Shown in pieces: positions 13,830 through 34,447 of a DNA stretch of 64,000 nucleotides. The first letter of the stretch is position 1; each line of letters begins with the position of its first letter. A program made the translations under genes and the position numbers. The stretch comes from Sphaerisporangium corydalis (GTDB taxonomy: Bacteria > Actinomycetota > Actinomycetes > Streptosporangiales > Streptosporangiaceae): assembly GCF_025506355.1 (NCBI RefSeq), contig NZ_JANZYP010000011.1, forward strand, positions 1 through 64,000. Direction: 5' to 3'. The notes beneath the pieces were generated by a model. That model was not told where the DNA came from. It was given only the letters and a program-made list of their open reading frames with translations, and did not search any database.

Positions 13830-13835
13830 CCGTCC

Positions 13836-15350: not shown

Positions 15351-16346
15351 ATGCCAACCCTGATCGGCTCAGTGCGCAGGCTCATGTTGACACCCTCGCT
15401 CGCCGAGGTGACTTTCGCCGTCCGGGGATTTCCGGTCACTCCCACGGACGCCACCCGCAGGCTGGAGGCCATTCCCCAGGCGGTGATCACCGGATTCGAA
15501 TGGGGAATCGACGCGCGCGACCAGTGGGAGGTCGAGCGCCGGCTGAGCATGGTCGACCAGGAGCTGCGCGGCTTCGCCTACGAGGGCGCGACGATGGCGT
15601 TCACGATCGTCGACGCCATGGGCGGCCAGCGTGGCACCCGCACCCGTGACCTCCTCCTCGGTCCTGGGCAGCCGCACATCTTCCTCACCTACATCGGCAT
15701 CGGCTTCGCGATGGCCCGGCTCCCCCGGCCGCTGTGGAAGAAGATCATGCCCGACCTGAGCGGCTCGGCGTACTACCCGACGATGAGCTGGCTGGCGGTC
15801 GACGGCTTCGGCTTCGACCGCGCCTACTTCGACACCCGCCGCTGGGTCGACGAGCAGCGCGTGCCGGCCCCCTACGCCTGGGAGGGGTCGCCCGACTACT
15901 TCCTGCGGGCCGTCGACCAGGGCATCGGCCGGGCGCTGTGGTTCATGCACGGTGGCCAGGTCGCCGACATCGCCGCCCGCGTCGGCGGGTTCGCCACCCA
16001 CCGGCAGCCGGACCTGTGGAGCGGCGTCGGGCTGGCCGCGACGTTCGCCGGCGGCAGCGGGCCCGAGGGCCTGGCCGCGCTGCGGCGCGCGTCCGGTGAG
16101 CACCACGCCCAGCTCGCGCAGGGGTCGGTCTTCGCGGCCAAGGCGCGGACCTTCGCGGGGTTCGTGCCGGAGCACACCGAGGTCGCCACCGCCGCGCTCA
16201 CCGACCTGTCGATCGACGGCGCCGTCGCGCTCGCCGACGCCACCGCGGTGGAGACCCCCGGGTCCGACGGCACCCCGGCGTACGAGCTGTGGCGGGCCGG
16301 AGTCCGCGCGCACTTCGCCTCCTCCGGGGACCGGATCCTCGCCTGA
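15351..16346 (+). CDS. Enediyne-associated DUF1702 protein (copy 1)
   Basis: A 331-residue protein of the DUF1702 (UnbL-type) family found next to enediyne polyketide synthases. It begins LIGSVRRLMLTPSLAEVTF and has the family's conserved RGF, FAYEGA, GIGFAMARL and DQGIGRALWF blocks. The ATG follows GAGGAG. Its role in warhead formation is not known. It is homologous along its length to the next gene, and both correspond in position to the E2/E3-type genes of characterised clusters (general knowledge, exact naming uncertain). A 203-bp gap separates them, so they may have separate promoters. A 17-bp palindrome lies just upstream. Confidence 0.9.
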   Translation: MPTLIGSVRRLMLTPSLAEVTFAVRGFPVTPTDATRRLEAIPQAVITGFEWGIDARDQWEVERRLSMVDQELRGFAYEGATMAFTIVDAMGGQRGTRTRDLLLGPGQPHIFLTYIGIGFAMARLPRPLWKKIMPDLSGSAYYPTMSWLAVDGFGFDRAYFDTRRWVDEQRVPAPYAWEGSPDYFLRAVDQGIGRALWFMHGGQVADIAARVGGFATHRQPDLWSGVGLAATFAGGSGPEGLAALRRASGEHHAQLAQGSVFAAKARTFAGFVPEHTEVATAALTDLSIDGAVALADATAVETPGSDGTPAYELWRAGVRAHFASSGDRILA

Positions 16347-16458
16347 CGGCACCGCCCCCGCGGTGACCGGATATCTCGCATAATGCGGGATCGAATTCAG
16401 CTGGACGGTTCTATCCGGCGTGCGGAAAAAGCGGTGTCCAACCGTTCAGTGAGCACGT

Positions 16459-16487
16459 TTGAAGTGGACCCTGAGTCAATCGATATG
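16459..16487 (+). promoter_or_regulatory. Possible promoter of the PKSE operon
   Basis: TTGAAG and GATATG are separated by 17 bases, 63 bases before the TTG start of the second DUF1702 gene, and are followed by a small inverted repeat TACCTTTAGGTA (16490-16501). The -10 match is weak. Confidence 0.3.
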
Positions 16488-16549
16488 GCTACCTTTAGGT
16501 AAAGATTACCCCACGGAGAAGGGGAAACCCCGGGGGGAGGGAGAGGCAC

Positions 16550-17530
16550 TTGACCAGCATTCTGAGGTCGTTGAGGAGTCGATTAATCACGCCCAACGTC
16601 TCGGAGACGAAGCTCTCGACGCGTGGTTTCCACGAGAAGAGTCCTGAGGCCCGAGACCTCTTGGAAAAGGTCGGCGAGATGTTCCTCACCGGCTACGCCT
16701 ACGCGGCGGAGGCGCGCACACCCGCCGAGGCCGAGGAGCGTCTGGAGCAGATCCCGCCGAGGTTCCGCGGGTTCGCCTACGAGGGCGCGGGCATGGGCTT
16801 CGCCGTCCTCGACGCGACCCCGCTGTCACGCGGGCCCAAGGTCCAGCGCTTCCTCGAGGGCAAGGGCGGCGACCAGATCTACCTGATCTACGTCGGCGTC
16901 GGCTGGGCGATGGCCCGGCTGCCGAAGTTCCTGTGGCCGAAACTCCACCTGCCCGACCCGCTGCTGCGCTACCTGGCGCTCGACGGGTACGGCTTCCACC
17001 AGGCCTACTTCAGCACCGACAAGTACGTCCGAGGGCAGTACCAGGACCCGCACTTCCCCTGGCCGGCCGACGCCCCGGCCGGCTACGCGAACCGGGTCAT
17101 CGACCAGGGCATCGGGCGGGCCATGTGGTTCGTCGGAGGCACCGACGTCGAAGTCGTCACCAAGATGATCCGTGAGTTCCCCGAGTCCCGCCGCGGCGAC
17201 CTGTACGCGGGCGCCGGGCTGGCCGCCACCTACGCGTGCGGCGCCGAAGAGGACGAGCTACGGGCGTTCAGGGACCTGGCGGGCGAGTACCGCCCCCAGC
17301 TCGCCCAGGGTTCGGCCTTCGCGGCCGAGGCCCGGGTGAAGCCGGGGCTGGTGGTGCCGGCCACGGAGATCGCGACACAGGTGTTCTGCGGCGTGACGCC
17401 GGAGCAGGCGGCGCGGGTCAGTAACGATTCCCGCCCTGACCAGCCGAACCAGGGTGATGTGCCGGGCTATGAAGTGTGGCGGCAGCGCATCGCCAACCAA
17501 TTTGTCTCTCTTGGAGGTGTTAGCCCGTGA
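16550..17530 (+). CDS. Enediyne-associated DUF1702 protein (copy 2), TTA-containing
   Basis: A 326-residue DUF1702 protein, paralogue of the previous gene, with matching RGFH, FAYEGAGMGF, VGWAMARL and IDQGIGRAMWF blocks. The start is TTG at 16550 after a purine-rich GGGGGGAGGGAGAGG site. Residue 12 is encoded by TTA (16583-16585). It is the first gene of the tightly packed operon that runs to the P450; its TGA overlaps the GTG of the UnbV gene (GTGA). Because of coupling, poor decoding of the TTA codon would also reduce expression of the genes after it. Function in enediyne assembly is unknown, although family members are conserved with the polyketide synthase. Confidence 0.9.
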   Translation: MTSILRSLRSRLITPNVSETKLSTRGFHEKSPEARDLLEKVGEMFLTGYAYAAEARTPAEAEERLEQIPPRFRGFAYEGAGMGFAVLDATPLSRGPKVQRFLEGKGGDQIYLIYVGVGWAMARLPKFLWPKLHLPDPLLRYLALDGYGFHQAYFSTDKYVRGQYQDPHFPWPADAPAGYANRVIDQGIGRAMWFVGGTDVEVVTKMIREFPESRRGDLYAGAGLAATYACGAEEDELRAFRDLAGEYRPQLAQGSAFAAEARVKPGLVVPATEIATQVFCGVTPEQAARVSNDSRPDQPNQGDVPGYEVWRQRIANQFVSLGGVSP

Positions 17531-19494
17531 CTGCGACCCTTGGCTGGCTGCGCAGGCAGCTACCGGGAATCGTCGCCCTCGTGCTGGTCACGAGCGTCTT
17601 CTTGATCGCCCGTCTGCCTTCCTACTCCGCCGCCGAGACGGAGAACATCGCGAGCAAGTTCGCGTTCAAGCCGCTCTCCATCTCCCTCCCCAGCGGCTTC
17701 AACCAGCAGACGATCCGCAAGGTGAACAAGGACTACGAGCACATCGACGCCTGGATCTCCTCGGTCGGCGCGGCCATCGCGATGAACGACCTCGACGGTG
17801 ACGGGCTCTCCAACGACCTGTGCCTGGTGGACACGCGTATCGACCAGGCCGTCGTGACGCCGACCCCCGGAGCGCGCGCGGACCGTTACGCCCCGTTCGC
17901 CCTGAACCCCGGCACGCTGCCGATGAACGACCACATGGCGCCGATGGGCTGCGTCCCCGGTGACTACAACGAGGACGGCCGCATCGACCTTCTGGTCTAC
18001 ATGTGGGGCCGCACGCCGATCCTGTACCTGGCCAAGCCGAGCGCGACCAAGCTGAGCGCCTACGCCTACGAGCCGACCGAGCTGGTGCCCGGCGCGAACT
18101 CGACCAACGGCAAGTACACCGGCCCGCAGTGGAACACCAACGCCGCCACCATCGCCGACTTCGACGGCGACGGCCACGACGACATCTTCATCGGCAACTA
18201 CTTCGCCGACGGCCCGGTGCTGGACTCCACGGTCAGCGGCGGCGTCCACATGAACCACTCGATGTCGCAGGGCTTCAACGGCGGCGAGGACTACTTCTTC
18301 CGCTGGACCGGGGCCACCACCGGCGACCAGTCCAAGGTCACCTACCAGTGCCTGGACAACGTGCTGCCCAAGGACTCCTCGAAGGGCTGGGAGCTCGGCG
18401 CGGCCTCCAACGACCTGGACGGCGACCAGCTCCCCGAGCTGTACCTGGCCAACGACTTCGGCCCCGACCGGATGTTCTACAACCGCTCCACGCCGGGTCA
18501 CATCAAGCTGTCGCCCGTCGAGGGCGTGCGCACCCCGCTGGTCCCCAAGTCCAAGGTGGTCGGTCACGACTCCTTCAAGGGCATGGGCCTGGACTTCGGT
18601 GACCTGAACCACGACGGCATCTACGACATGTTCGTCAGCAACATCACCACCTCGTGGGGCATCGAGGAGAGCAACTTCCAGTACATGTCCACCGCCAAGA
18701 ACCAGGCCGACCTGCGCGCCAAGCTGCGCGACGGCCAGGCGCCGTGGGTGGACAAGAGCGGCCCGTCCGGCACCGCGTGGTCCGGCTGGGGCTGGGACGT
18801 CAAGATGGAGGACTTCAACAACGCCGGCGAGCTGTCGATCGCCCAGGCCACCGGCTTCGTGAAGGGCCAGATCGACCGCTGGCCCCAGCTCCAGGAGCTG
18901 GCCACCGCCAACGACCAGTTGCTGCAGAACCCCTTCTGGTGGCCGAACGCGCAGGCCGGCGACGACATCGGCGGCAACCAGACGCTGCACTTCTTCGCCA
19001 AGGGCCCGACGGGCCGCTACGTGGACCTGGCGCCGAAGCTCGGCCTGGCCATCCCGATCCCCACGCGCGGCATCGCCAGCGGCGACTCCGACGGTGACGG
19101 CCTGGTGGACTTCGCCGTGGCCCGCCAGTGGGGCGAGCCGGTCTTCTACCAGAACCAGAGCCCGGCAGCGGGCGCCTTCCTCGGGCTGAAGCTGACCCGC
19201 GACGCCACCCCCGTCGCCGGGACGCTCCCGGCCGCCGGCTCGCCGGTCACGGGTGCGCAGATCACGGTGAAGCTGCCCGACGGCCGGTGCTTCATCGCCC
19301 GCGTCGACGGCAGCAGCGGCCACTCCGGCCGGCGGACCACCGACGTCCACATCGGGCTCGGCCAGAACGTCACCGGGCCGGTCCAGACGCACATCCAGTG
19401 GCGCGACCGCACCGGACAGGTGCATGACCAAGATCTTTCGCTGACCACGGGCTGGCACTCGCTCGTGCTCGGCCAGCAGGCCAAGGAGAAGTGA
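17527..19494 (+). CDS. UnbV-type enediyne protein (FG-GAP repeats, ASPIC/UnbV domain)
   Basis: A 655-residue protein. A hydrophobic N-terminal segment (about residues 13-29) is a signal anchor. At least six calcium-binding FG-GAP-like repeats follow, marked by DLDGDG, DYNEDG, DFDGDG, DLDGDQ, DLNHDG and DSDGDG. The last 100 residues form the ASPIC/UnbV domain. The family is part of the conserved enediyne cassette together with DUF1702 and UnbU proteins; its biochemical role is not settled. The exported beta-propeller suggests a role at or outside the membrane. Start GTG 17527 overlaps the upstream stop. Confidence 0.93.
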   Translation: MTATLGWLRRQLPGIVALVLVTSVFLIARLPSYSAAETENIASKFAFKPLSISLPSGFNQQTIRKVNKDYEHIDAWISSVGAAIAMNDLDGDGLSNDLCLVDTRIDQAVVTPTPGARADRYAPFALNPGTLPMNDHMAPMGCVPGDYNEDGRIDLLVYMWGRTPILYLAKPSATKLSAYAYEPTELVPGANSTNGKYTGPQWNTNAATIADFDGDGHDDIFIGNYFADGPVLDSTVSGGVHMNHSMSQGFNGGEDYFFRWTGATTGDQSKVTYQCLDNVLPKDSSKGWELGAASNDLDGDQLPELYLANDFGPDRMFYNRSTPGHIKLSPVEGVRTPLVPKSKVVGHDSFKGMGLDFGDLNHDGIYDMFVSNITTSWGIEESNFQYMSTAKNQADLRAKLRDGQAPWVDKSGPSGTAWSGWGWDVKMEDFNNAGELSIAQATGFVKGQIDRWPQLQELATANDQLLQNPFWWPNAQAGDDIGGNQTLHFFAKGPTGRYVDLAPKLGLAIPIPTRGIASGDSDGDGLVDFAVARQWGEPVFYQNQSPAAGAFLGLKLTRDATPVAGTLPAAGSPVTGAQITVKLPDGRCFIARVDGSSGHSGRRTTDVHIGLGQNVTGPVQTHIQWRDRTGQVHDQDLSLTTGWHSLVLGQQAKEK

Positions 19495-19499
19495 TCGAC

Positions 19500-20477
19500 A
19501 TGGCTGAAGCCAAGGCCGGCGCGTCGCCGCGCCACGATCCAAAGGTGATCATCGCTCTACGCAACTTCGCGATGTCGATCACGGTCTTCAACATCCTCGG
19601 TTACACGGTGCTCGGCTTCGAGCAGCCGTGGGTGTGGCCCTTCCTCGCCCTGGCGACCGGCTACTCCACCGAGATCGCGCTGGAGTGGATCGGCGCCCGC
19701 GTGGAGGGCCGCGACCCGCGCTACAAGGGCAACGGGTTCAAGGGCCTGATGCAGTTCCTGTACCCGGCGCACATCACCAGCCTCGCGATGAACATGCTGA
19801 TCTACGTCAACGACCAGGTCCTGGTCCTGATCTTCGGTGTGGTCGTCGCGGTCGGCGCCAAGTGGGTGCTGCGGGCCCCGGTCAAGGGCCGGATGCGCCA
19901 CTACATGAACCCGTCGAACTTCGGCATCGCGGTCATCCTGCTGGTCCTGCCCTGGGCCAGCATCGCGCCTCCGTACCACTTCACGGAGTACACCGACACC
20001 TGGTTCGACTGGATCATCCCCTGCATCATCATCATCGGCGGCACGATGCTGAACGGGAAGCTCACCGGACGAATGCCGCTGATCATGGGCTGGGTGGGCT
20101 TCTTCATCGTCCAGGCCATCGTGCGCGGCATCTTCTTCGGCACCTCGATCCCCGCCGCGCTCGGCATGATGACCGGCGTCGCCTTCGTGCTGTTCAGCAA
20201 CTACATGGTGACCGACCCGGGCACCAGCCCGTCCAGACCGGCGGCCCAAGTGGCCTTCGGTGGTGGCGTCGCCCTGTTCTACGGGCTGCTGACCGCCGTG
20301 CACATCTCCTACGCCCTGTTCTTCGCCACGGCCGGCGTCTGCGCCATCCGCGGCGGGTTCTTCTGGGCCCTGCACTTCGTCAACAAGGCCCGCGAACAGC
20401 GTGAGGCCGAGGCGCGCCGTCCGGCCGTACCGGTCGAGACCGTCCCCGCCGTCGGGAAAGAGGCCGCGACCGTATGA
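19500..20477 (+). CDS. UnbU-type enediyne integral membrane protein
   Basis: A 325-residue polytopic membrane protein with about eight hydrophobic helices, belonging to the UnbU family (distantly like RnfD/NqrB-type proteins). AAGGAG lies 11 bases before the ATG at 19500; an in-frame GTG at 19491 is too close to that site. Always found beside UnbV and the enediyne synthase. It may act in transport or redox coupling at the membrane; experimental function is not established. The stop codon overlaps the start of the polyketide synthase gene (ATGA), so the two are translationally coupled. Confidence 0.93.
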   Translation: MAEAKAGASPRHDPKVIIALRNFAMSITVFNILGYTVLGFEQPWVWPFLALATGYSTEIALEWIGARVEGRDPRYKGNGFKGLMQFLYPAHITSLAMNMLIYVNDQVLVLIFGVVVAVGAKWVLRAPVKGRMRHYMNPSNFGIAVILLVLPWASIAPPYHFTEYTDTWFDWIIPCIIIIGGTMLNGKLTGRMPLIMGWVGFFIVQAIVRGIFFGTSIPAALGMMTGVAFVLFSNYMVTDPGTSPSRPAAQVAFGGGVALFYGLLTAVHISYALFFATAGVCAIRGGFFWALHFVNKAREQREAEARRPAVPVETVPAVGKEAATV

Positions 20478-23400
20478 GCAGCAGGATCGCGATCGTCGGG
20501 ATGTCGTGCCGCTACCCCGACGCCTCATCGCCCAGAGAACTCTGGGAGAACGCACTGGCCGGCCGGCGGGCCTTCCGCAGGCTGCCCGACGTGCGCATGC
20601 GGCTGGAGGACTACTGGGACGCCGACCCGGCCCATCCGGACACCTTCTACGCGCGGACCGCGGCCGTCATCGAGGGCTACGAGTTCGACCGCGTCGGCTT
20701 CAAGATCGGCGGCAGCACGTACCGCTCGACCGACCTCACCCACTGGCTCGCGCTCGACATGGCGTCGCTGGCCCTGGCCGACGCCGGCTTCCCCGGCGCC
20801 GAGGGACTGCCCCGTGAACGCACCGGCGTGATCGTGGGCAACACCCTCACCGGCGAGTTCACCCGCGCCAACGTCATGCGGCTGCGCTGGCCGTACGTGA
20901 AGCGCACCGTCGCCGCCGTGCTGCAGGACCAGGGCTGGGACGACGACAGGCTGGCCACATTCCTCGAGGACTTCGAGGCCACCTACAAGAGCCCGTTCCC
21001 CGCCATCGACGAGGACACCCTGGCGGGCGGGCTGTCCAACACCATCGCCGGCCGGATCTGCAACTACTTCGACCTCAACGGCGGCGGCTACACCGTCGAC
21101 GGCGCCTGCTCCTCCTCGCTGCTGTCGGTCACGACGGCCTGCAAGGCGATCCTGGACGGCGACATCGACGTGGCGATCGCCGGAGGCGTCGACCTGTCGA
21201 TCGACCCGTTCGAGATCGTGGGCTTCGCCAAGACCGGCGCCCTGGCCAAGAACGAGATGCGGCTGTACGACCGGCACTCCAACGGCTTCTGGCCCGGCGA
21301 GGGCTGCGGCATGATCGTGCTGATGCGCGAGGAGGAGGCCATCAAGGCCCGCCACCGCATCTACGCCACCATCGCCGGCTGGGGCATCTCCTCCGACGGC
21401 AAGGGCGGCATCACCCGGCCCGAGGTCAGCGGCTACAAGCTGGCGCTGCGCCGGGCCTACGAGCGGGCCGGCTTCGGCATCGAGACCGTGGAGCTGTTCG
21501 AGGGCCACGGCACCGGCACCGCCGTCGGGGACGCCACCGAGCTCACCGCGCTGTCGGAGGCCAGGTCCGAGGCCGACCCCGAGGCCACGCGCGCCGCGGT
21601 CACCTCCATCAAGGGGATGATCGGGCACGCCAAGGCCGCGGCCGGCGTCGCCGGGCTGATCAAGGCCGCGATGGCGGTGCACGAGCAGGTGCTCCCGCCG
21701 GCCATCGGCTGCGTCGACCCGCACGACATCCTCACCTCGGACGCGGCGACGCTGCGCGTCCTGCGCAAGGCCGAGCCCTGGCCCGCCGGCACGCCCGTGC
21801 GGGCCGGCATCACCGCCATGGGCTTCGGCGGCATCAACACCCACGTCGTGCTGGACAAGACCGCGCCACGCAAGCGCGCGCCGTTCTCGACGCGCACCAA
21901 GGCGCTGGCCGCCTCCCTGCAGGACGTGGAACTGCTGCTCGCCGACGCCGCCTCACCGCAGGCGCTGCGCGAGCGGGTCGCCGAACTGGCCTCCTTCGTG
22001 GAGAAGGTGTCCTACGGCCAGCTCTCCGACCTCGCCGCCACCCTGCAGCGCGACCTGCGCGAGCAGCCGTACCGCGCCGCCGTCGTGGTGTCCTCGCCCG
22101 AGGACGCCCAGCGGCAGCTCCAGCGGGTGCTGACCGCGCTCGACGCGGGCGAGACCAGCCTGTTCGCCCCGGACGGCCGGGCCTTCTTCGGCCAGGCCGA
22201 CGGTCCGGGCCGGGTCGGCTTCCTGTTCCCCGGGCAGGGGTCGGGCCGGGGCACCAGCGGCGGCGCGCTGCGCCGGCGCTTCGCCGAGGTCGAGGAGATC
22301 TACCTCCAGGCGGACCTGCCCACCAGCGGCGACATGGTGGCGACCGCCGTCGCCCAGCCGCGTATCGTGACCGGTTCGATGGCGGGCCTGCGGGCCCTGG
22401 CCACGATCGGCGTCGAGGCGGACGTCGCGGTCGGCCACAGCCTGGGCGAGATCTCGGCCCTGCACTGGGCCGGGGCGATGGACGAGGAGACCCTGCTGCG
22501 GGTCGCCGCCGGCCGGGGCAAGGCCATGACCGAGCACAGCGCCTCGGGCACCATGGCCAGCGTCCGGGCCACCCCCGACACCGTCACCGAGCTGACGGGC
22601 GAGCTGCCCGTCGTCATCGCCGGGTACAACGGCCCCGACCAGACGGTCATCGCCGGCCCGGTCGACGCGATCGAGGAGTTCGGCCGCAAGGCCACCGGCG
22701 CGGGCCTGAAGTGGACCAAGCTGCCGGTGTCCCACGCCTTCCACTCCCCGCTGGTCGCGCCGGCCGCCGACGAGTTCGGCGTCCGGCTCGCCGAGGAGGA
22801 GTTCGGCCCGGTCAGCGGGCAGATCGTCTCCACGGTGACCGGGGTGGTGCTGTCCCCGGACACCGACATCCCCGAGCTGCTGCGCAAGCAGATCACCGAC
22901 CCCGTCCTGTTCACCCAGGCGGTGGAGGTCGCGGCCAAGGACATGGACCTGCTGGTCGAGGTCGGTCCCGGCCGGGTGCTCAGCGGGCTGGCGGCGTCGG
23001 TCACCGACGTCCCGGCCGTCGCGCTGGACACCGACGACGAGTCGCTGACCGGGCTGCTGCGGGTGGCCGGCGCGGCCTACGTCGCCGGCGTGCCGATCGT
23101 GCACGAGGAGCTGTTCCACGGCCGGCTGCTCCGGCCGCTGGAGGTCGGCACCGAGTTCACCTACTTCCAGAGCCCCGTGGAGAAGGCGCCGCAGGTCAGC
23201 ATCCGCGCCGCCGCCCCCCGGGCGGCGTCGGTGAAGGCGGCCCCCGCGGTCGCCGGCGACACCCGGCAGGAGGGGGACCCGGCCGAGTCGAGCATCGACC
23301 TGCTGCGCCGCCTCGCCGCCGAGCGCGCCGAGCTGCCGCTGGAGATGGTCAGCGAGGACAGCAGACCGCTGGACGAGCTGCACCTGAGCTCGGTCACCGT

Positions 23401-26269: not shown

Positions 26270-26272
26270 GCC

Positions 26273-26701
26273 ATGGGCAAGTACTACGAATACCTGCACA
26301 CGGTCGGCTTCGAAGAGACCAACATCGTCGGCAACGTCTACTACGTCAACTACCTGCGCTGGCAGGGACGTTGCAGGGAGATGTTCCTGAAGCAGCGGGC
26401 GCCCGAGGTGCTCGCCGACCTCCAGGACGACCTGAAGCTGTTCACGCTGAAGGTCGACTGCGAGTTCTTCGCCGAGATCACGGCCTTCGACGAGCTGTCC
26501 ATCAGGATGCGCCTGCAGGAGCTGGGCCAGACCCAGGTCGAGTTCAGCTTCGACTACGTCCGGCTGGACGCGGGCGACGCCGAGACGCTCGTCGCCCGTG
26601 GCCGCCAGCGTGTGGCGTGCATGCGCGGGCCGAACACCAAGACGGTCCCGGCCAGGGTCCCCGACGCCTTGGCGCAGGCGCTCGAAGCGTATGCGTCTTA
26701 G
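26273..26701 (+). CDS. Enediyne hot-dog thioesterase (E10/CalE7 type)
   Basis: A 142-residue 4-hydroxybenzoyl-CoA-thioesterase-like hot-dog protein, starting three bases after the synthase stop. The family releases the polyene from the synthase. As in CalE7, there is no catalytic acid in the usual position; Asn17 and Arg35 fall where CalE7 has its functional Asn and Arg (offset of two). The segment GNVYYVNYLRWQGRCRE is strongly conserved. Gene order synthase-thioesterase is the minimal enediyne pair. Confidence 0.96.
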   Translation: MGKYYEYLHTVGFEETNIVGNVYYVNYLRWQGRCREMFLKQRAPEVLADLQDDLKLFTLKVDCEFFAEITAFDELSIRMRLQELGQTQVEFSFDYVRLDAGDAETLVARGRQRVACMRGPNTKTVPARVPDALAQALEAYAS

Positions 26702-26734
26702 GCGCCGATCAAGACAGGCAGGCAGGAGGACAGC

Positions 26735-27274
26735 GTGAACGTCGACAACTCCACGGTGATCCGCCCGATGGCGGACGCGAAGTCGCTCCGGCGAGCATTC
26801 GGGACGTTCGCCACCGGTTGCACGGTGATCACGACGGGCGGCGCCTCGCCGCACGCCATGACCGCCAACTCCTTCACCTCGGTCTCGCTGGAGCCTCCGC
26901 TGGTGCTGATCTGCGTCGACCGCGGCGCCGTGATGCACCAGTGCCTGACCTCGACGGGCTCCTTCGGGGTGTCCGTGCTGGCCGCGCACCAGGAGGCCGC
27001 GGCGCTGCACTTCGCGGACCGCTGGCGGGCCCTGGGCGCGGCCCAGTTCGAGCCTGTGGACTGGACGCCGGGCCGGCTGACCGGCGCGCCGTTGCTGGAC
27101 GGCACGCTGGCCAGCCTGGAGTGCGAGCTGTGGCGCACCTACGACGGCGGCGACCACACCATCTTCATCGGCAAGGTCATCTCCTTGCACCAGCAGACCG
27201 ACAGGGACGCCCTGCTGGTCTTCAAAGGCAAGTTCCGCCAGATCAGCCCTGATTGGAGCGAGGTGCCGGCGTGA
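26735..27274 (+). CDS. Flavin reductase (HpaC/SgcE6-like)
   Basis: A 179-residue short-chain flavin reductase with the FGTFATGCTVIT start and the MTANSFTSVSLEPP flavin-binding segment. It would supply reduced FAD or FMN to a two-component monooxygenase. A likely partner is the DszC/HsaA-type protein at 49387-50637, but that is inference. GTG start at 26735 with AGGAGG upstream. Homologues called E6 are found in nine-membered enediyne clusters. Its TGA overlaps the P450 GTG. Confidence 0.9.
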   Translation: MNVDNSTVIRPMADAKSLRRAFGTFATGCTVITTGGASPHAMTANSFTSVSLEPPLVLICVDRGAVMHQCLTSTGSFGVSVLAAHQEAAALHFADRWRALGAAQFEPVDWTPGRLTGAPLLDGTLASLECELWRTYDGGDHTIFIGKVISLHQQTDRDALLVFKGKFRQISPDWSEVPA

Positions 27275-28668
27275 CCCTCACCGGACCCCAGGCCGGCCAG
27301 GCGTCCGAGCACCCGGCGGCGGCCCCGTCCCGCCGCCGGGTGCCGCCAGGCCCGCCACCGTGGGCGGCCCCCAGCCTGTTCAAGAAGCTGGCGACCGACC
27401 GCATCGCGCTGATGTCGCTCGCCGCGACGTACGGCGACGCGGCCCGGCTGTCCATCGGGCCCAAGACCCTGTACTTCTTCAACCACCCCGACCACGCCAA
27501 GCACGTGCTGGCCGACAACAGCGGCAACTACCACAAGGGCGTCGGCCTGGTTCAGGCCCGGCGCGCCATCGGTGACGGGCTGCTGACCAGCGAGGGCGCG
27601 CTGTGGCGCAAGCAGCGCAAGATGATCCAGCCCGTGTTCCAGAACAAGCGCATCTCCCAGCAGGCCGGGGTCATCGCCAAGGAGGCGGCGAACCTGGTCG
27701 ACCGGCTGCGGTCCCACGCGGGCGGCGAGCCGGTGGACGTCGTCCAGGAGATGACCTCGCTCAGCCTCGGCGTGCTCGGGCGCACCCTGCTGGACGCCGA
27801 CCTCGGCGCGTTCAGCAACATCGGGCACTCCTTCGAGGCCGTGCAGGACCAGGCGATGTTCGAGCTGGTGACGCTGAGCAAGGTGCCGCTCTGGGCGCCG
27901 CTGCCCAAGCAGATCCGGTTCCGCCGGGCCCGCAAGGAGCTGCAGCGCATCGTCGACCACCTGGTCGCCGACCGGATGTCGCGGACCGGCGAGGACGGCG
28001 ACAACGTCATGTCCCGCCTGATCGGCTCCACCCAGGCCGAGGCCGACCCGCGCGTCGGCAGGCAGCGCATGCGGGACGAGCTGGTCACCCTGCTGCTCGC
28101 CGGGCACGAGACGACGGCGAGCACGCTGTCGTGGACGTTCTACCTCATCGACCAGCACCCGGAGGTCCGCGAGCGGCTGCACGCCGAGGCGGCCGAGGTG
28201 CTGGGCGACCGGCTGCCGGTCTACGAGGACCTGCACCGGCTGAAGTACACCGCCATGGTGGTGGAGGAGGTCATGCGCCTCTACCCGCCGGTGTGGATGC
28301 TGCCCCGTGAGGCGCAGAAGGACGACGAGGTCGGCGGGTACCACGTGCCGGCCGGGTCCGACGTGCTGATCAGCCCCTACACCCTGCACCGGCACCCGGC
28401 CTTCTGGGACGCGCCCGACCGGTTCGACCCCGAGCGGTTCGACCCGGCCAAGCCGTCCACCCGGCCGAGGTACGCCTACATCCCGTTCGGCGCCGGCCCC
28501 CGCTTCTGCGTGGGCAACCACCTGGGCATGATGGAGGCCACGTTCGTGATCGCCATGGTCGCCCGTGACCTGAGGCTGGCCAAGCTCCCCGGGCACAAGG
28601 TGGTGGCCGAGCCGATGCTCTCCCTGCGGGTGCGCGGCGGGCTGCCGATGACGGTGCACTCCGCCTGA
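27271..28668 (+). CDS. Cytochrome P450 (enediyne E7 type)
   Basis: A 465-residue class I bacterial P450 in the long, CYP-bulk-type format. I-helix AGHETTAS, a downstream EVMRLYPP (ExxR region) and the heme loop FGAGPRFCVGNH with the cysteine ligand are intact. Start GTG at 27271 overlaps the flavin-reductase stop; GGAGCGAGG precedes it (an upstream TTG at 27253 is less likely). Position after the flavin reductase matches E7 P450s of nine-membered enediyne clusters. It ends the core operon. Confidence 0.93.
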   Translation: MTLTGPQAGQASEHPAAAPSRRRVPPGPPPWAAPSLFKKLATDRIALMSLAATYGDAARLSIGPKTLYFFNHPDHAKHVLADNSGNYHKGVGLVQARRAIGDGLLTSEGALWRKQRKMIQPVFQNKRISQQAGVIAKEAANLVDRLRSHAGGEPVDVVQEMTSLSLGVLGRTLLDADLGAFSNIGHSFEAVQDQAMFELVTLSKVPLWAPLPKQIRFRRARKELQRIVDHLVADRMSRTGEDGDNVMSRLIGSTQAEADPRVGRQRMRDELVTLLLAGHETTASTLSWTFYLIDQHPEVRERLHAEAAEVLGDRLPVYEDLHRLKYTAMVVEEVMRLYPPVWMLPREAQKDDEVGGYHVPAGSDVLISPYTLHRHPAFWDAPDRFDPERFDPAKPSTRPRYAYIPFGAGPRFCVGNHLGMMEATFVIAMVARDLRLAKLPGHKVVAEPMLSLRVRGGLPMTVHSA

Positions 28669-28673
28669 CGATC

Positions 28674-28707
28674 GTCCCGCCGCGGGCCGACCGGCGCGCG
28701 GCGGGAC
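28674..28707. terminator. Hairpin terminator between the core operon and the AraC gene
   Basis: GTCCCGCCGCG and CGCGGCGGGAC pair over 11 bp with a 12-base loop, six bases after the P450 stop. The AraC-type gene is convergent, so it may serve both. Confidence 0.65.
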
Positions 28708-28844
28708 GGGACACGCGGACGCGGCGGGCGCTCCCTGGTCGGGGGTTCCCGCCGTCCGTCTGCCCACCGGCCGCCGGACGACGCGAACCGTCCCCGGAAA
28801 CGCGAACCGCCCTGGCGCGGGCGGTGGCGCGGGGGCGGCGGAGG

Positions 28845-29615
28845 TCAGTGGGTGAGCTGCGGGACGGGTGCCGACAGCACGTCGCGCAGGGCCAGCAGCA
28901 CCGGGGGGTCGAGGGGGCGCATCGGGCGCAGGTGGAGGTCGGCGACCCGGGTGTGCGTGCCGGCGTGGACCGTGATCGGCCCCTGGCGGCCGATGCACAG
29001 GGCCTCGTCGCCTCCGGGGGCGTGGTCGACGGCGTCCTCGCGGCCCGGGGCCACCGACTGGGCCATCAGGTGCCACTCGCCCTGCGGGACGTCCTCCAGG
29101 ACGTAGGGGCCGGGCTTGCGGAGGATCACATACCGCACGGGCTGGCCTTCGAGGATCCGGTCGGGGAACAGCCCCGCGAAGATCGGCTGGTCTTTGAGGG
29201 GGGAGGAGATGTCGCCGCGCACGGTCGTCACGGGCGGGTCGCCGGCCGCGCCGTCCCAGCTCGCCGCGGAGGCGCGCGGGGCGACGCTCTTGAGCTGGCG
29301 GTACTTGGTGGGGGAGAGCCCCACGCTGCTGGTGAACCGGGAGCTGAAGGTGCCGACGCTCGAATAGCCGACGCGGTGGCTGATGTCGGTGACGGTCAGC
29401 GACGTCGAGGCGAGCAGTCTTTTGGCCTCCTGAAGGCGCACCGCGGAAAGGAAACGACCGGGGGAAAGCCCGGTCACCCGCTGGAACACACGGGAGAAGT
29501 GAAACTTGCTGAACATCGCCGTCCGCGCCATGTCGTTAATGGTGAGCTGCTCGCCGAGATTCTCGTGCATACTCTTGACGACGCGCATGACGGCTTGTTC
29601 AATCGCGTTTTCCAT
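28845..29615 (-). CDS. AraC-family transcriptional regulator
   Basis: A 256-residue regulator with the DNA-binding domain at the N-terminus (two helix-turn-helix motifs, residues about 8-105, including FSKFHFSRVFQRVTGLSPGRF and VGYSSVGTFSSRF) and a C-terminal domain of about 140 residues of unassigned ligand. The order resembles SoxS/Rob-type rather than classical AraC. The ATG at 29615 has GGGAGGAGCA upstream; an ORF extension to 29681 has no ribosome site. It is the only transcription factor in the window and divergent from the DUF5987/GMC genes, so it is a candidate regulator of the cluster. Confidence 0.88.
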   Translation of the reverse strand: MENAIEQAVMRVVKSMHENLGEQLTINDMARTAMFSKFHFSRVFQRVTGLSPGRFLSAVRLQEAKRLLASTSLTVTDISHRVGYSSVGTFSSRFTSSVGLSPTKYRQLKSVAPRASAASWDGAAGDPPVTTVRGDISSPLKDQPIFAGLFPDRILEGQPVRYVILRKPGPYVLEDVPQGEWHLMAQSVAPGREDAVDHAPGGDEALCIGRQGPITVHAGTHTRVADLHLRPMRPLDPPVLLALRDVLSAPVPQLTH

Positions 29616-30078
29616 TGCTCCTCCCGTGCATTGGAGGTGTGGTGGTAATTGACCCCGAATTAACACGGGAGACCTCGTCATCGCGAGCCTCCGTCATCTG
29701 CTCTCCCGCCATGGCAGCGAATTCTTCCCGCTCGCATACGGTGTGCAATCCGGGAAAAACGAAGCTCGACAACGACACATCGACGGCACTTGGCCATGAC
29801 ATCAGAATTGGCCGGAGCACCTCCTGCGACAACCCCTAACAGCCCCCTGCCTGCCGATACACGGTTTCCGGGGGGGTCGGTAAACGCGTGATCGATTCCC
29901 GTCGAATCACGCGGGAAGGGACATTGGGCGCACCGGGGGCGAGCCCCTCGGAACCCCCTGCGGGACCCCTTCCCGACCGGGATGCCGACGTGAAAGCAAC
30001 TCAGAAGATGCACCCGGGGCGGCCGGGCCTGAACGATGAACTGGTCAGCAGACGACCTGGACGGACGAGGAAACGCCT
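29616..30078. promoter_or_regulatory. Divergent regulatory region between AraC regulator and DUF5987 gene
   Basis: Non-coding 463 bp. Contains an inverted repeat CGCGTGAT-N13-ATCACGCG (29885-29913) and, closer to the plus-strand gene, GGTC-N7-GACC (30043-30057). Either may bind a regulator. The first half is AT-rich relative to coding DNA, as expected of promoters. Confidence 0.45.
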
Positions 30079-30648
30079 ATGCGACCGCCATTTCCAGACG
30101 AAGAGCAGGCCAGGACGATGACGATCGAGGCGTGGGCGGACACGATCGTCCCCGGCGAGAAGCGGTCGCCCGACGACAGGGCCGTGGCGGGTGTCTCCAC
30201 CGGAGGCGGCGCGGTGGCGGCCGGCGCCCTGGAGCTGCTGGAATGGGACGCGACCGGCCTGAGCGAAGCGCTCGGCAGCCTGGCGAGCGCCCTGAACGAC
30301 CACACCGTGGTGTACGCCGGCGAGCACGGCCTGGACCTCGACGAGACCGTCCCCCCGTTCGTGGCGCTGGACTTCGACCACCGCACCGCCATGGTGCGGC
30401 GCCTCACCACACCCGGCCACCCTGAGAAGCCGCTGTGGGTCAGCCTCGCCCTGTTCTGCAACATGGCCTTCGACTCGGCGGCCCACATGCACACCGCCGA
30501 CGCCATCGCCCAGGGGCACCCCGGGCTGATCGCGATGGGCATCGAAAGGCCCGACCCCGACGGGTTCTGGCGGTTCCCGAAGTACTCCTACGGCCGTCCG
30601 CTGGCCCGCCTGCACCCGGACACGACCCCCTCAGGGAGCCCCGCATGA
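30079..30648 (+). CDS. DUF5987 protein, partner of the GMC oxidoreductase
   Basis: A 189-residue protein. Its first 30 residues run into TMTIEAWADTIVPGEKRSPDD, similar in style to the gamma subunit of gluconate 2-dehydrogenase-like complexes; a central AFD and the terminal FPKYSYGRPLARLHP are typical of DUF5987. Related proteins, called E8-like, occur with E9 GMC oxidoreductases in nine-membered enediyne clusters. The stop codon overlaps the start of the GMC gene (ATGA), supporting a two-subunit enzyme. No TAT or Sec signal is visible. Start ATG at 30079 with GAGG eight bases upstream. Confidence 0.78.
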   Translation: MRPPFPDEEQARTMTIEAWADTIVPGEKRSPDDRAVAGVSTGGGAVAAGALELLEWDATGLSEALGSLASALNDHTVVYAGEHGLDLDETVPPFVALDFDHRTAMVRRLTTPGHPEKPLWVSLALFCNMAFDSAAHMHTADAIAQGHPGLIAMGIERPDPDGFWRFPKYSYGRPLARLHPDTTPSGSPA

Positions 30649-32300
30649 CCAGCACCGAACGCACCGACGTCCTCGTGGTCGGCAGCGGCTTCGGCGGCGC
30701 GATCGCGGCCTACCACCTCGCGGCCGGCGGCGCGAAGGTCGTGGTGCTCGAACGCGGGCCGTGGCTGCAGAGCAAGGACTTCGACCACGACTTCAAGCTC
30801 GGGTCCTCCTACACCCGCGCCTTCGACTTCGTCGTGGGCGACGGCATGAGCATCCTCGGCGGCAACTGCGTGGGCGGCGGGAGCGTCGTCTACTTCGCCG
30901 CGATGCCGCGCGCCCCGCGTTACGTCTTCGAGCGGCACGGCAGCATCGGGCGCCGCATGTGGCCCTCGGCCGTCAGCCGTGACACGCTGAACCCCTGGTA
31001 CGACCGGGTCGAGGAGTCGATCCCGATCCACCAGCAGGACTGGAACGACGTCTCCTACGCCGGAGGGCTGTGGGCGGCGGCGTGCAACCACGCGGGCCGC
31101 ACCGCCAACCCGGTGCCGGTCGCCATCGACACCACCAAGTGCACCAACTGCAACTGGATGATGGCCGGCTGCCGCTTCGACGCCAAGCAGTCCCTGCTGT
31201 TCACCTACCTTCCCGCGGCCCTCGCGCACGGGGCCGAGATCCGCCCGCTGCACGAGGTGCAGAAGATCTCCCGCACCGACGACGGCGGCTACCGCGTCCA
31301 CTACGACCACATCGACGCCGAGGACTACCGCATCCGGCACGGGAGCGGCACGATCGACGCCAAGGTCATCGTGCTGGCGGCCGGCGCGGGCGCCACCCCG
31401 GTCATCCTGCAGCGCAGCGAGGCGACGCTCGGCGAGATGCCGAGGGCCGTCGGCCGGTACTTCTCCGGCAACGGCGAGCGCCTCAACACCGCGATACTCA
31501 ACGAGGACAAGGTGCGCGACGTGCTCGGCCTCGAGCGCGGCGACGGGCTGGCCTACGAGGCGAACCAGATCGGCAAGGGCCCGGTCGTGGCGAGCTGGGA
31601 CAAGCTCGACGGGTCGCTGCCGGAGTACTCGCGGTTCTCGCTGGAGCAGCTCTACTTCCCGCCGGGGCTCGGCACCATCCTCGCGCAGGTCCCCGGCCAC
31701 CCCGGGGTGAGCTGGTTCGGCAAGGACAAGAAGGAGATCCTCAAGCGCTGGCGCTCCTGGCTGATCATCTTCCAGATGACCGAGGACGACAACGAGGGCG
31801 TGTTCGGCGCGCCCCCCGCGCACGGCAACGCCGACCGGCTCTCCCAGCAGATGCTCGGCGTCGGGCCGCTGAAGTACGACCCGACCCCCAACACGCTGCG
31901 CGGATGGGCCGAGGCCGACGCCGAGGTCAAGGACATCCTGGAGCGGGACGGGCTGGCCGAGGTGGCGGCGTGGACCAACGACGTGGTGGGCGCGTACACC
32001 GTGCACCCGCTCGCGTCCTGCCGCATCGGCGACGACCCGGCGACCTCGGCGCTCGACGACCGCAACGAGCTGCGCGGCCACCCCGGCATCTTCGTCACCG
32101 ACGGGGCCTCGGTGCCGGGCGCGCTGAACGTCAACCCGGCGATGACGATCGCCGCGCTCGCCGAGCGCGCCGTCCCCGGCATCGTCGAGGCCGCGCGGAT
32201 GCGCGGTGTCGAGGTCACCTACGGGGCCCCGGCCCCCGACGGCGCCGTCAGCGGCCGTCGCGGTGTGCTCCCGCTGGTGCCCGCGCTGCTGCGGCACTGA
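30645..32300 (+). CDS. GMC-family FAD oxidoreductase (enediyne E9 type)
   Basis: A 551-residue GMC (cholesterol-oxidase-like) flavoprotein. The N-terminal VVGSGFGGAIAA is the FAD site; HPLASCRIGDDP near the C-terminus carries the active-site histidine, followed by VNPAMTIAALAERA. It has a cysteine-rich stretch (CTNCNWMMAGC, about residues 165-177) that is also found in relatives with a DUF5987 partner. It overlaps that partner gene by four bases. E9-like oxidoreductases are conserved in nine-membered enediyne clusters and act on the polyene or enediyne core, step unknown. Confidence 0.9.
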   Translation: MTSTERTDVLVVGSGFGGAIAAYHLAAGGAKVVVLERGPWLQSKDFDHDFKLGSSYTRAFDFVVGDGMSILGGNCVGGGSVVYFAAMPRAPRYVFERHGSIGRRMWPSAVSRDTLNPWYDRVEESIPIHQQDWNDVSYAGGLWAAACNHAGRTANPVPVAIDTTKCTNCNWMMAGCRFDAKQSLLFTYLPAALAHGAEIRPLHEVQKISRTDDGGYRVHYDHIDAEDYRIRHGSGTIDAKVIVLAAGAGATPVILQRSEATLGEMPRAVGRYFSGNGERLNTAILNEDKVRDVLGLERGDGLAYEANQIGKGPVVASWDKLDGSLPEYSRFSLEQLYFPPGLGTILAQVPGHPGVSWFGKDKKEILKRWRSWLIIFQMTEDDNEGVFGAPPAHGNADRLSQQMLGVGPLKYDPTPNTLRGWAEADAEVKDILERDGLAEVAAWTNDVVGAYTVHPLASCRIGDDPATSALDDRNELRGHPGIFVTDGASVPGALNVNPAMTIAALAERAVPGIVEAARMRGVEVTYGAPAPDGAVSGRRGVLPLVPALLRH

Positions 32301-32320
32301 CAGACAGAGGGGAACGGGCG

Positions 32321-33418
32321 ATGGGGAAGCTGCTCAGCCGGGTCATGCTGCCGGGGACGCTGTCCCAGGTGCGCCACGTGTCGCCGGTACGGCCGCGCGA
32401 CGCGTCCGGCCTGGTGACCAGGGTCTACGCGCAGGCGGAACGGGACTTCGGCATGCTGGCGCCGCCGCTGCTGCTGCACTCGCCCGCCCCCGACACCCTG
32501 GCGGCCTCCTGGTCGATGCTCAGGGAGACGCTCCTCGCCGGTGGCCTTGTCCCGAGGCCGGTCAAGGAGGCCGTCGCCACCGCCGTGTCGGCGGGCAACG
32601 CCTGCCCGTACTGCGTCGACGTGCACCGGGCCACGATGGACGGCCTGGTGCCGGGCGGCCAGGCGGCCGAGATCGCCGCCGGGCGGCTGGACACGGTCGG
32701 CGACCCGGTCGTTCGCCGGGCCGCCGCCTGGGCCCTGGCGAGCGCGAAACGCGAGAGCGCCGCGCGGCACGAGGCCCCCGCCCCCGCGGCGGAGGCCAGG
32801 GAGCTGGCCGGGGTCGCGGCCACCTTCCAGTACCTGAACCGCATGGTCCACGTCTTCCTCGGCGAGTCCCCCCTGCCGCCCGAGGTGCCCGATCGGGTGC
32901 GCGGCACGGTGATGAAGGTGTTCGGCCGGGTCATGAGCTCGGTCGCCCGCAGGCCCGCGGTGCCGGGCGAGTCGCTCGGCCTGCTGCCGGACGCGCCGCT
33001 GCCCGGTGACCTGTCCTGGGCGGACGGCTCCCCCCTGGTCGCCGGCGCCTTCGCGCGGGCCGCCGCCGCCATCGAGCGCGGCGGGCGCAGGTCGGTGCCC
33101 GAGCCGGTACGCGAGCTGGTCACCGCCGAGCTGGCCGCGTGGAACGGCGAGCCGACCGGCCCGAGCCGCGCGTGGGTCACCGCCGCGGTGTCGGCGCTGC
33201 CGCCCGCCCAGCGCGCGGCGGGCCGCCTGGCGCTGCTCACGGCCATGGCCTCCTACCAGATCGACGACAAGGTGATCGGCGAGTACCGCGTCGGCGCGCC
33301 CCTGGACCGGTCGCTCGTCGAGCTGACGTCCTGGGCGAGCATGGCCGCAGCGCGCGAGGTGGGGAGCTGGTCCCTGACCGCGCCGAAGGCCGCCGTGGAC
33401 GGCCCTGTACTGACGTGA
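32321..33418 (+). CDS. AhpD-like/carboxymuconolactone-decarboxylase-fold protein (365 aa)
   Basis: A 365-residue protein, about twice the size of usual AhpD proteins. The AhpD motif CPYCVDVH (Cys95, Cys98, His102) is intact in the first half; the second half repeats the helical fold without cysteines, so it looks like a fused, degenerate duplicate. It starts 20 bases after the GMC gene with GAGGGGAACGGGCG upstream, so it is probably in the same operon. It could correspond to one of the less-studied conserved enediyne genes (E11-like), but this name is uncertain. A thiol redox role is suggested by the motif. Confidence 0.7.
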   Translation: MGKLLSRVMLPGTLSQVRHVSPVRPRDASGLVTRVYAQAERDFGMLAPPLLLHSPAPDTLAASWSMLRETLLAGGLVPRPVKEAVATAVSAGNACPYCVDVHRATMDGLVPGGQAAEIAAGRLDTVGDPVVRRAAAWALASAKRESAARHEAPAPAAEARELAGVAATFQYLNRMVHVFLGESPLPPEVPDRVRGTVMKVFGRVMSSVARRPAVPGESLGLLPDAPLPGDLSWADGSPLVAGAFARAAAAIERGGRRSVPEPVRELVTAELAAWNGEPTGPSRAWVTAAVSALPPAQRAAGRLALLTAMASYQIDDKVIGEYRVGAPLDRSLVELTSWASMAAAREVGSWSLTAPKAAVDGPVLT

Positions 33419-33643: not shown

Positions 33644-34447
33644 GTGAGCGAGCTGGACGAAGTTCTCCAGGCCCTGACCACGGACGGCGAGGAGCTCGAC
33701 CGTCTGGTGGCCGGCATCGATGCGTCGCAGTGGGAGCTGCCCACCCCCGCCCCCGGATGGACGATCCACGACCAGATCGCCCACCTCGCCTTCATCTTCA
33801 AGCTCGCCGGGACGGCGGCCTCGAACGCCGAGGCGTTCAAGGCCATGACCGCCGGGGCCGAGAAGGACTTCAACGGCGCGGTCAACGCCGCGCTCTCGCT
33901 CTACACAGGCGACAGCCCCGAGGTCCTGCTCTCGCGCTGGCGGGCCGAGCGCTCGGCCGTGGTCGAGGCCCTCGCCGCCGTGCCGGCGGGAGAGGTCGTC
34001 CCGTGGCTGGTCAACCCGCTGCCGCCGATCATCCTGGCGTGCGCGGGCATCATGGAGCAGTTCGCGCACGGGCAGGACATCGCCGACGCGCTCGGCGTGC
34101 GGCGCGAGGCGACCGACCGGCTCAAGCACCTTGTGGTGTTCGCCGTGCTGACCAAGGACTTCGGCTACCTGTCGCGGGGCCTGACCCCGCCGTCGGTCGA
34201 CTTCCGCTTCGAGATCACCGGCCCGTCGGGCGAACTGTGGGCCTACGGCCCCGAGAACGCGACGCAGCGGGTGAGCGGTCCCGCCGAGGACTTCTGCCTG
34301 CTGGTGACCCGGCGGCGCCACCGGGACGACCTCGCGGTCGTCGCGACCGGCGACGAGGCCGACCACTGGCTGGACATCGCGCAGTGCTACCGGGGACCCG
34401 CAGGAGCGGGCCGCGCCCCCGGGCAGTTCGCGCCCGCCGGAGTGTGA
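33644..34447 (+). CDS. TIGR03084-type protein (DinB/maleylpyruvate isomerase fold)
   Basis: A 267-residue protein. The N-terminal 160 residues match the mycothiol-dependent maleylpyruvate isomerase (DinB-like) fold, with histidines in HDQIAHL (about 47-52) and the metal triad end EQFAHGQD (Glu-x3-His). The C-terminal part is a small alpha/beta domain. Such proteins are metal-binding and often mycothiol-dependent transferases. Mycothiol is the main actinobacterial thiol, so a role in protection from or activation of an enediyne is possible but not shown. GTG start with GAGAGG upstream. It precedes the aromatic supply genes. Confidence 0.8.
   Translation: MSELDEVLQALTTDGEELDRLVAGIDASQWELPTPAPGWTIHDQIAHLAFIFKLAGTAASNAEAFKAMTAGAEKDFNGAVNAALSLYTGDSPEVLLSRWRAERSAVVEALAAVPAGEVVPWLVNPLPPIILACAGIMEQFAHGQDIADALGVRREATDRLKHLVVFAVLTKDFGYLSRGLTPPSVDFRFEITGPSGELWAYGPENATQRVSGPAEDFCLLVTRRRHRDDLAVVATGDEADHWLDIAQCYRGPAGAGRAPGQFAPAGV

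Follow-up and report, generated by a model that had tools for sequence, protein, structure and literature searches.

Enediynes supply antibody-drug payloads, and in model systems an enediyne polyketide synthase and its thioesterase give a polyene. PMC5181780 counts 11 enediynes of known structure at its time and 28 enediyne clades, of which 27 differ from those already known. It recognizes an enediyne cluster by the five-gene synthase cassette E3/E4/E5/E/E10, and uses E2 as a nine-membered marker; R3 is the ten-membered marker. The closest described systems are C-1027, sporolide, and maduropeptin. In the first, SgcC works on a carrier-bound substrate, and SgcE6 serves both SgcC and the halogenase (PMC6165268). 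The maduropeptin (mdp) arm of Actinomadura madurae is built in the order aminomutase, adenylation, carrier, deamination, hydroxylase, O-methyltransferase, halogenase, reductase, and condensation (PMC10951976). Here, we analyze 64,000 nucleotides of Sphaerisporangium corydalis (bases 1-64000 of contig NZ_JANZYP010000011.1, assembly GCF_025506355.1; “the window”), which in all likelihood hold the core-bearing two thirds of a ~77-kb nine-membered enediyne cluster with a tyrosine-derived arm.

The window opens a contig of 163,998 bases in a genome of 9.48 Mb. The cluster spans contig positions 10351-87230, ending 23 kb beyond the window, and comprises 59 genes when two carbohydrate-enzyme interlopers are excluded. 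We called 48 genes in the window and compared 41 with Pfam (genes from position 9000 onward, the edge-cut last gene minus its first residues) and 20 with NCBIfam; tRNA genes and Rfam elements were searched for in the window and none was found. Gene content, order, phylogeny, and conservation were read directly, and from these every reaction and the product are predicted. The references are the C-1027 cluster on Streptomyces globisporus plasmid NZ_CP013739.1 (loci L033 and L089) and the sporolide region of genome G316, which we take to be Salinispora tropica.

The enediyne core and its ring type

The sequence-only reading of the window had placed a complete enediyne core cassette at 15351-33418, and Pfam families at those places and on that strand bear it out. 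The core opens with two DUF1702 genes, E2 (15351-16346, +) and E3, or UnbL (16550-17530, +). Then come E4, a UnbV protein (FG-GAP/UnbV_ASPIC; 17527-19494, +; 56% identical to C-1027), and E5, the membrane protein UnbU (19491-20477, +), which has no Pfam match and is 65% identical to the C-1027 gene adjoining that cluster's synthase. With the 1931-aa enediyne polyketide synthase (20474-26269, +) and the E10 hot-dog thioesterase (4HBT_2; 26273-26701, +; 77.5%), all five genes of the E3/E4/E5/E/E10 cassette are present at the locus. The core continues with the E6 flavin reductase (Flavin_Reduct; 26735-27274, +; 52% to the SgcE6 gene), the E7 cytochrome P450 (p450; 27271-28668, +; 64%), an AraC-type regulator (28845-29615, -; 54%), E8 (DUF5987; 30118-30648, +; 68%), the E9 GMC oxidoreductase (30645-32300, +; 80%), and a CMD/alkylhydroperoxidase-like gene (32321-33418, +; 46%). 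Core-gene identities to C-1027 thus run from 46 to 80%. The C-1027 core is likewise complete and in the same order, except that its thioesterase and CMD gene lie further on. The labels E2-E10 are those we presume, with E2 and E3 assigned by gene order; the C-1027 record itself labels SgcE6 and two DUF1702 proteins.

The gene caller had started E2 and E3 late, at 15483 and 16679. From 15351, the start given by the sequence-only reading, E2 matches DUF1702 over positions 2-319 of 319 (E 5e-140), and E3 does likewise from 16550 (E 3e-134). Given such E-values and the identical core order in relatives, chance can be excluded. The synthase had been read as KS-AT-ACP-KR-DH-PPTase with its active residues. 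The KS, AT, KR, and DH domains stand by Pfam and by conserved residues: KS Cys212, His345, and His385, AT Ser656, KR Tyr1351, and DH His1481 are invariant in an alignment of 50 rows, and AT His754 is conserved in 46. The ACP domain (motif LHLSS) and the PPTase (phosphopantetheinyl transferase) domain have no Pfam match and are assigned through homology to SgcE (65% over 1935 aligned residues).

Two trees place this core with the nine-membered type. The synthase tree (50 synthases, maximum likelihood, quick search, with support from the SH-aLRT branch test only) has just three named references, C-1027 and sporolide (nine-membered) and dynemicin (ten-membered). Maduropeptin enters our comparisons through its aminomutase only. 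The window synthase falls on the C-1027 and sporolide side, with dynemicin across a branch of SH-aLRT 100. It belongs to a supported 9-row clade of genus members only, nested in a supported 18-row clade of congeners, Planobispora, Nonomuraea, and further genomes of the same family; the sporolide synthase sits on a separate branch. In the DUF1702 tree, the first copy joins C-1027 and sporolide in the E2 clade (SH-aLRT 100), and the second belongs to the E3 clade (99). A third group consists of ten loci with a single DUF1702, dynemicin included. Since the synthase tree and the E2 clade agree, both setting the window opposite dynemicin, we assign the cluster to the nine-membered type, as the sequence-only reading had proposed.

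The dynemicin row was recognized by a neighboring thioesterase that matches the PDB DynE7 chain without a difference over 137 residues, and its synthase is 40.9% identical to that of the window. A calicheamicin reference was not found among the loci fetched, where the best thioesterase match to CalE7 reached 74%. We rejected thioesterase similarity as a test of ring size: the window thioesterase scores 245 bits against PDB 4i4j and 131 against DynE7, but still 211 against CalE7 of a ten-membered cluster. Because it is 67% identical to CalE7, the thioesterase alone is not decisive.

A beta-tyrosine arm and the outer genes

A C-1027-type beta-tyrosine arm (aminomutase, adenylation domain, peptidyl carrier, hydroxylase, and condensation enzyme) is complete at the locus, just outside the window. 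It includes an SgcC1-like C-A-PCP synthetase (contig 63854-67102, +, with 63854-64000 in the window; 48% to SgcC1), a tyrosine aminomutase (contig 67171-68712; 79% to C-1027), an SgcC5-like condensation enzyme (contig 68920-70293; 472 bits to 4znm; 50% to C-1027), a carrier (contig 70356-70631), and an HpaB-type SgcC-like hydroxylase (contig 71896-73506, -; 926 bits to 4oo2; 75% to C-1027 and 79% to the sporolide region). Further C-1027 likenesses are SgcC2 (45%) and SgcJ (60%). In the aminomutase, Ala-Ser-Gly 128-130 and Tyr39 are invariant in a 13-row alignment. It scores 864 and 862 bits against the C-1027 and maduropeptin structures, where our assignment of each PDB entry to its system is an assumption. 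The stand-alone condensation enzyme retains the HHTAADE motif. In the C domain joined to the adenylation domain, this motif is without its second, catalytic histidine, and SgcC1 has a shorter remnant at that place; the fused domain is therefore probably not a condensing enzyme.

The arm lay beyond the view of the sequence-only reading, which also overlooked a DAHP synthase (34545-35585, +; Pfam and NCBIfam) and the adjoining prephenate dehydrogenase (35614-36504, +; Pfam). These likely supply aromatic precursor and tyrosine, respectively, and probably feed the beta-tyrosine arm. The dehydrogenase occurs in 8 of the 13 other clusters read (59-72% identity), the DAHP synthase in one (G009, 82%); the latter was not found in the clusters read from congener G003 or from Planobispora longispora.

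We propose a pathway in which the order of the late steps is a guess. The synthase and thioesterase would make a linear polyene, and the E2-E9 set would turn it into the nine-membered core by chemistry carried over from C-1027 and its kin. The DAHP synthase and prephenate dehydrogenase would raise the tyrosine supply, the aminomutase would make beta-tyrosine, and the SgcC1-like enzyme would load it onto a carrier. The SgcC-like hydroxylase, sharing reductase E6, would hydroxylate the ring, and methyltransferases and flavin oxidases would modify the unit before the SgcC5-like enzyme couples it to the core. A major facilitator superfamily (MFS) pump would export the product. Because the arm lacks a halogenase and transaminase and has methyltransferases, a short-chain dehydrogenase/reductase (SDR), and flavin oxidases, the arm unit is expected to be non-chlorinated, hydroxylated, probably methylated, and beta-tyrosine-derived.

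The outer genes in the window were identified by Pfam and NCBIfam. Downstream of the core lie YCII, DUF2855, and DUF2306 genes (38887-41455, +), with homologues of at least 53% identity in 5, 4, and 4 of the 13 other clusters, and a leaderless solute-binding-like protein (41555-42901, -; 48% in both C-1027 and the sporolide region). These are followed by a berberine bridge enzyme (BBE)-type flavin oxidase (43241-44827, +); a P450, a RibD_C reductase, and a luciferase-like monooxygenase (44850-47559, +), the P450 being 50% identical to one in the sporolide region; a membrane acyltransferase (Acyltransf_3; 47814-49013, -); an HsaA-like two-component flavin monooxygenase (49387-50637, +; 67% to a sporolide-region gene); two S-adenosylmethionine methyltransferases (50740-52532, -); and a zinc-ribbon methyltransferase (52855-54405, +; 49% to a sporolide-region gene). 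A flavin adenine dinucleotide (FAD) oxidase (FAD_binding_4; 54458-55843, +) resembles BagK/FevA1 in NCBIfam, below the cut-offs. An SDR (61185-61937, -; 71-80% in 7 of the 13 other clusters) starts the arm and precedes a FAD_binding_3 oxygenase (62370-63770, +; 51% to C-1027 and 52% to the sporolide region). We tried the DAHP synthase and FAD oxidase as relatives of ferroverdin and bagremycin enzymes and rejected this, their scores falling under the NCBIfam cut-offs and indicating resemblance only.

All the accessory genes listed by the sequence-only reading are real, and the second of its two “BBE oxidases” (the FAD oxidase) matches FAD_binding_4 but not the BBE domain. Its view that they match no characterized cluster holds for the BBE oxidase, DUF2855, DUF2306, and the FAD oxidase: for none of these four is there a homologue of at least 40% identity in C-1027 or sporolide, although the sporolide region has 31% matches to the last two. 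It fails for the binding protein and the zinc-ribbon methyltransferase. The nearest PDB entries to the BBE oxidase are AknOx, a hexose oxidase, TamL, CrmK, and GilR; we take these to be late-stage alcohol or sugar oxidases. The BBE oxidase carries GGH and Cys motifs, presumably for bicovalent FAD linkage, and the FAD oxidase has the His, with Ser replacing Cys.

The FAD oxidase has orthologues of at least 67% identity in 14 other genomes, the next best match being 42%. Of the 15 other aminomutase carriers, 13 have it, against 1 of 133 genomes that have no aminomutase; the exceptions are carriers G004 and G022, which lack it, and G080, which has it with no aminomutase. The carriers are related, so these 13 co-occurrences are not independent events. 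Even so, the FAD oxidase tracks the aminomutase, which suggests that it acts on, or with, the beta-tyrosine unit.

Toward its left edge, the conserved block begins with a flavoprotein monooxygenase (Pyr_redox_3; 10351-11940, -; 77-86% in 7 of 10 congeners), followed by a membrane protein and two CMD/alkylhydroperoxidase-like genes (11940-14633, -; C-1027 homologues of 67%, 54%, and 51%) and a 70-aa acyl-CoA carboxylase epsilon subunit (PF13822, E 3e-14; 14872-15084, +). Beyond the core lie a TIGR03084/MDMPI_N protein (33644-34447, +; 67% to C-1027) and the MFS exporter (37165-38721, +; 46% to C-1027 and 54% to the sporolide transporter). Past the window, Pfam scans found a PhyH dioxygenase (contig 70723-71601), an acyl-CoA dehydrogenase-like protein (contig 73921-75102), a SnoaL-like protein (contig 75205-75600), and a carboxyltransferase (contig 81057-82799). 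The 24 kb following the window also encode regulators, an epimerase, a hydrolase, a phosphopantetheinyl transferase, and a second carrier, the last ending at contig 87230. The epsilon subunit and the carboxyltransferase, which probably supply malonyl-CoA, lie near opposite cluster ends. Paralogous small membrane proteins also lie near both ends (11940-12503 and contig 83019-83540), and C-1027 has one such protein near its E2 gene.

Cluster unity, product, and alternative readings

A GDSL hydrolase and a GH95 glycosidase (55922-60837, -; Pfam) interrupt the cluster. We rejected both as members: they turned up in none of the compared stretches, and their flanks adjoin in Planobispora longispora NBRC 13918 (L125, G053), where the orthologues of the FAD oxidase and the SDR are ~150 bases apart. 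Counting homologues at 40% or more identity and 50% or more coverage, in stretches whose differing lengths make the lower counts lower bounds, we find matches to the 59 cluster genes in congener G003 (56, over two contigs), G001 (52), G007 (47), G005 (46), P. longispora (44), G004 (43), G009 (33), C-1027 (28), and the sporolide region (25). The oxidase-SDR adjacency and the 44 genes kept in P. longispora indicate that the cluster is one unit. Both G003 and P. longispora share its oxidase, methyltransferase, and tyrosine modules; the P. longispora cluster is without the insertion and has, in addition, genes with 29-34% identity to sugar genes of C-1027. The same junction holds other genes elsewhere, whose functions were judged from first residues: copper-handling genes in G001 and in G003, which is split over two contigs there; two-component, esterase, and acyl-CoA dehydrogenase genes in G010; and still others in G002. 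In G004, a foreign block lies on the same side of the SDR, and the FAD oxidase is lost. This junction looks like a recurrent insertion place.

Several genes of the described systems were sought here and not found. Searches of contig 1-104000 with C-1027 halogenase, thymidine diphosphate (TDP)-sugar, glycosyltransferase, benzoxazolinate, and epoxide hydrolase genes (tblastn, E ≤ 1e-10; the labels of these queries are partly our assumption) gave no match. Pfam scans of the cluster turned up no transaminase, halogenase, or salicylate synthase. The neocarzinostatin-family apoprotein (PF00960) has no match in the genome of the window; it occurs in 3 of 13 genomes searched, this genome included, and all three are congeners, of which 8 of 10 were in the search. 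Epoxide hydrolase copies of 72-74% lie near the synthases of G005, G007, and G008, within the stretches read, and the sporolide region has an SgcF-type enzyme 70% identical to that of C-1027. Because halogenase, clustered epoxide hydrolase, sugar, and apoprotein genes were not found, we regard the product as probably distinct from C-1027, sporolide, and maduropeptin. It is expected to be without chlorine, sugar, benzoxazolinate, or apoprotein.

A number of observations weigh against our reading of a nine-membered cluster with such an arm and product. Long branches meet on the ten-membered side of both trees (a program warning), the letter make-up of seven rows of the synthase tree, dynemicin among them, is unlike the rest, and two named nine-membered references and one ten-membered are few. 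Congener G004 has the arm without the FAD oxidase, which such arms can therefore do without. The two parts of the cluster, separated by the carbohydrate-enzyme pair, could be regulated apart. Halogenase homologues of 37-38% identity elsewhere in the genome, and homologues of epoxide hydrolase reaching 57%, could act in trans. Finally, no tyrosine aminomutase match was found in the 140 kb of sporolide region read, although sporolide, as we understand it, carries a tyrosine-derived ring.

Might the cluster instead be a diverged orthologue making a known product of the C-1027, sporolide, or maduropeptin type? The shared genes (28 and 25 of 59) and the like aminomutase scores would fit. On its tyrosine arm, mdp shares with the window cluster an aminomutase, an adenylation enzyme, a stand-alone carrier, a hydroxylase, an O-methyltransferase, a reductase, and a condensation enzyme (PMC10951976). 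Yet the cluster-to-cluster comparison shows no clear identity to C-1027 or sporolide. The window synthase is 65.2% identical to that of C-1027 (1923 columns) and 67.3% to that of sporolide, over whole proteins and far under the 90% clade cut-off that PMC5181780 sets on a 1-kb fragment. C-1027 has halogenase, epoxide hydrolase, TDP-sugar, benzoxazolinate, and apoprotein genes with no match in the window cluster, which in turn adds the DAHP synthase, prephenate dehydrogenase, BBE and FAD oxidases, methyltransferases, and PhyH dioxygenase. The sporolide region, beyond the likenesses given above and E2-E10, has no homologue of 34 of the 59 genes at 40% identity and 50% coverage. By its description, maduropeptin needs a transaminase, halogenase, and salicylate synthase, and mdp has an amino sugar, 3,6-dimethylsalicylate, and apoprotein besides (PMC10951976). 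A known product is thus very unlikely.

It is more improbable still that the cluster is decayed or silent and gives no enediyne, with the insertion and the missing genes as signs of this. The block at 55922-60837, the unfound epoxide hydrolase, halogenase, and apoprotein genes, the altered fused C domain, and the loss in G004 would point that way. Against this, none of the core and arm genes that were examined is truncated, and all checked motifs are intact except in the fused C domain, of which SgcC1 also has only a remnant. Moreover, the FAD oxidase and SDR flanking foreign genes in G001, G002, G003, and G010 are 75-83% identical to those of the window, as expected under selection. We give least credence of all to a ten-membered cluster that carries some nine-membered-like accessory genes by chance. 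The thioesterase identity to CalE7 speaks for it, as does the sole named ten-membered synthase, flagged for deviating letter make-up. However, the synthase tree and the E2 clade both set the cluster opposite dynemicin, the full E6-E9 set is present and ordered as in C-1027, and ten synthase loci on the dynemicin side carry one DUF1702 each within the 15-20 kb read, not two as in the window. We therefore retain the nine-membered cluster with a tyrosine-derived arm. It is complete and probably working, and its host, a soil actinomycete of the Streptosporangiaceae, very probably makes a DNA-cutting nine-membered enediyne antibiotic.

Relatives in the genus and a conserved binding protein

The cluster is not unique. 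The synthase occurs in all 10 congeners sampled (76-87% identity). So does UnbU, present in 31 of 149 genomes in a search that took in the window genome. The aminomutase, at E ≤ 1e-100, is in 16 of the 149, all 10 congeners among them, so that nine-membered core and aminomutase occur together throughout the sampled genus. A Sphaerisporangium genome note makes no mention of enediynes (PMC5968725). In a broader scan, at least 30 of the 80 matches listed are aminomutase homologues of 65% or more, in Streptomyces, Micromonospora, Nonomuraea, Planobispora, Nocardiopsis, Salinispora, Kitasatospora, and others; the synthase was found in 21 of 23 genomes searched behind the matches listed. G005 (C285, L083) and G002 (C16, L084) each have a second synthase locus, which carries one DUF1702 gene and groups on dynemicin's side of the synthase tree.

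Among 160 Micromonospora-group genomes, 86 also have UnbU homologues. At loci L276-L278, UnbV and UnbU stand near a synthase match of just 199-210 residues, and the two genes may also exist independently of enediyne clusters. We rejected UnbU (E5) alone as an enediyne marker: genome G063 has E4/E5 with no synthase match in 20 kb, on a contig that starts 5 kb from E4/E5. Because UnbU alone is unreliable, as G063 and L276-L278 show, the 86 matches are not counted as clusters.

The binding protein is UgpB-like (83 bits to PDB 6x84) and occurs in 10 of the 13 other clusters read, C-1027 and sporolide among them (orthologues include L089, L275, L286, L036, L043, L046, L305, L076, and L304); in the three misses (G002, G010, and G068), the stretches read cover only part of the cluster. 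Neither the window protein nor the 10 orthologues has a hydrophobic leader in the first 60 residues, by a hydropathy measure (a 12-residue stretch above mean hydropathy 1.5) and not a signal-peptide program. With membrane spans counted crudely, no ATP-binding cassette (ABC) permease pair lies within three genes either side of it in the 10 orthologous loci, and the window protein is likewise without a neighboring permease. It often stands beside arm genes: an SgcC5-like enzyme in the sporolide region, a hydroxylase and zinc-ribbon methyltransferase in G005, and an HsaA-like oxygenase in G007 and G009. No role assigned to this conserved protein was found in the open-access literature searched. 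We offer, as a long shot, that it is an unrecognized cytosolic carrier of the enediyne or a late intermediate, sequestering it where no apoprotein was found. If so, it would be a new kind of enediyne self-protection.

The suggestion that the product may be new is plausible given a synthase only 65-67% identical to those of C-1027 and sporolide, and is tempered by close whole-cluster relatives in the same genus. The prediction of enediynes not yet seen from cassettes of this sort is well established (PMC5181780), and hence we place the cluster, as a new member, in a family already known. The combination of its outer parts is predicted to be new: an unusual nine-membered enediyne without chlorine, sugar, or apoprotein. 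Its occurrence throughout the sampled genus and the orphan binding protein, conserved in nine-membered enediyne clusters, are the points of greater interest. Within Sphaerisporangium, one core is kept while outer modules are swapped among sister species, a natural experiment on how the outer parts shape enediyne chemistry.

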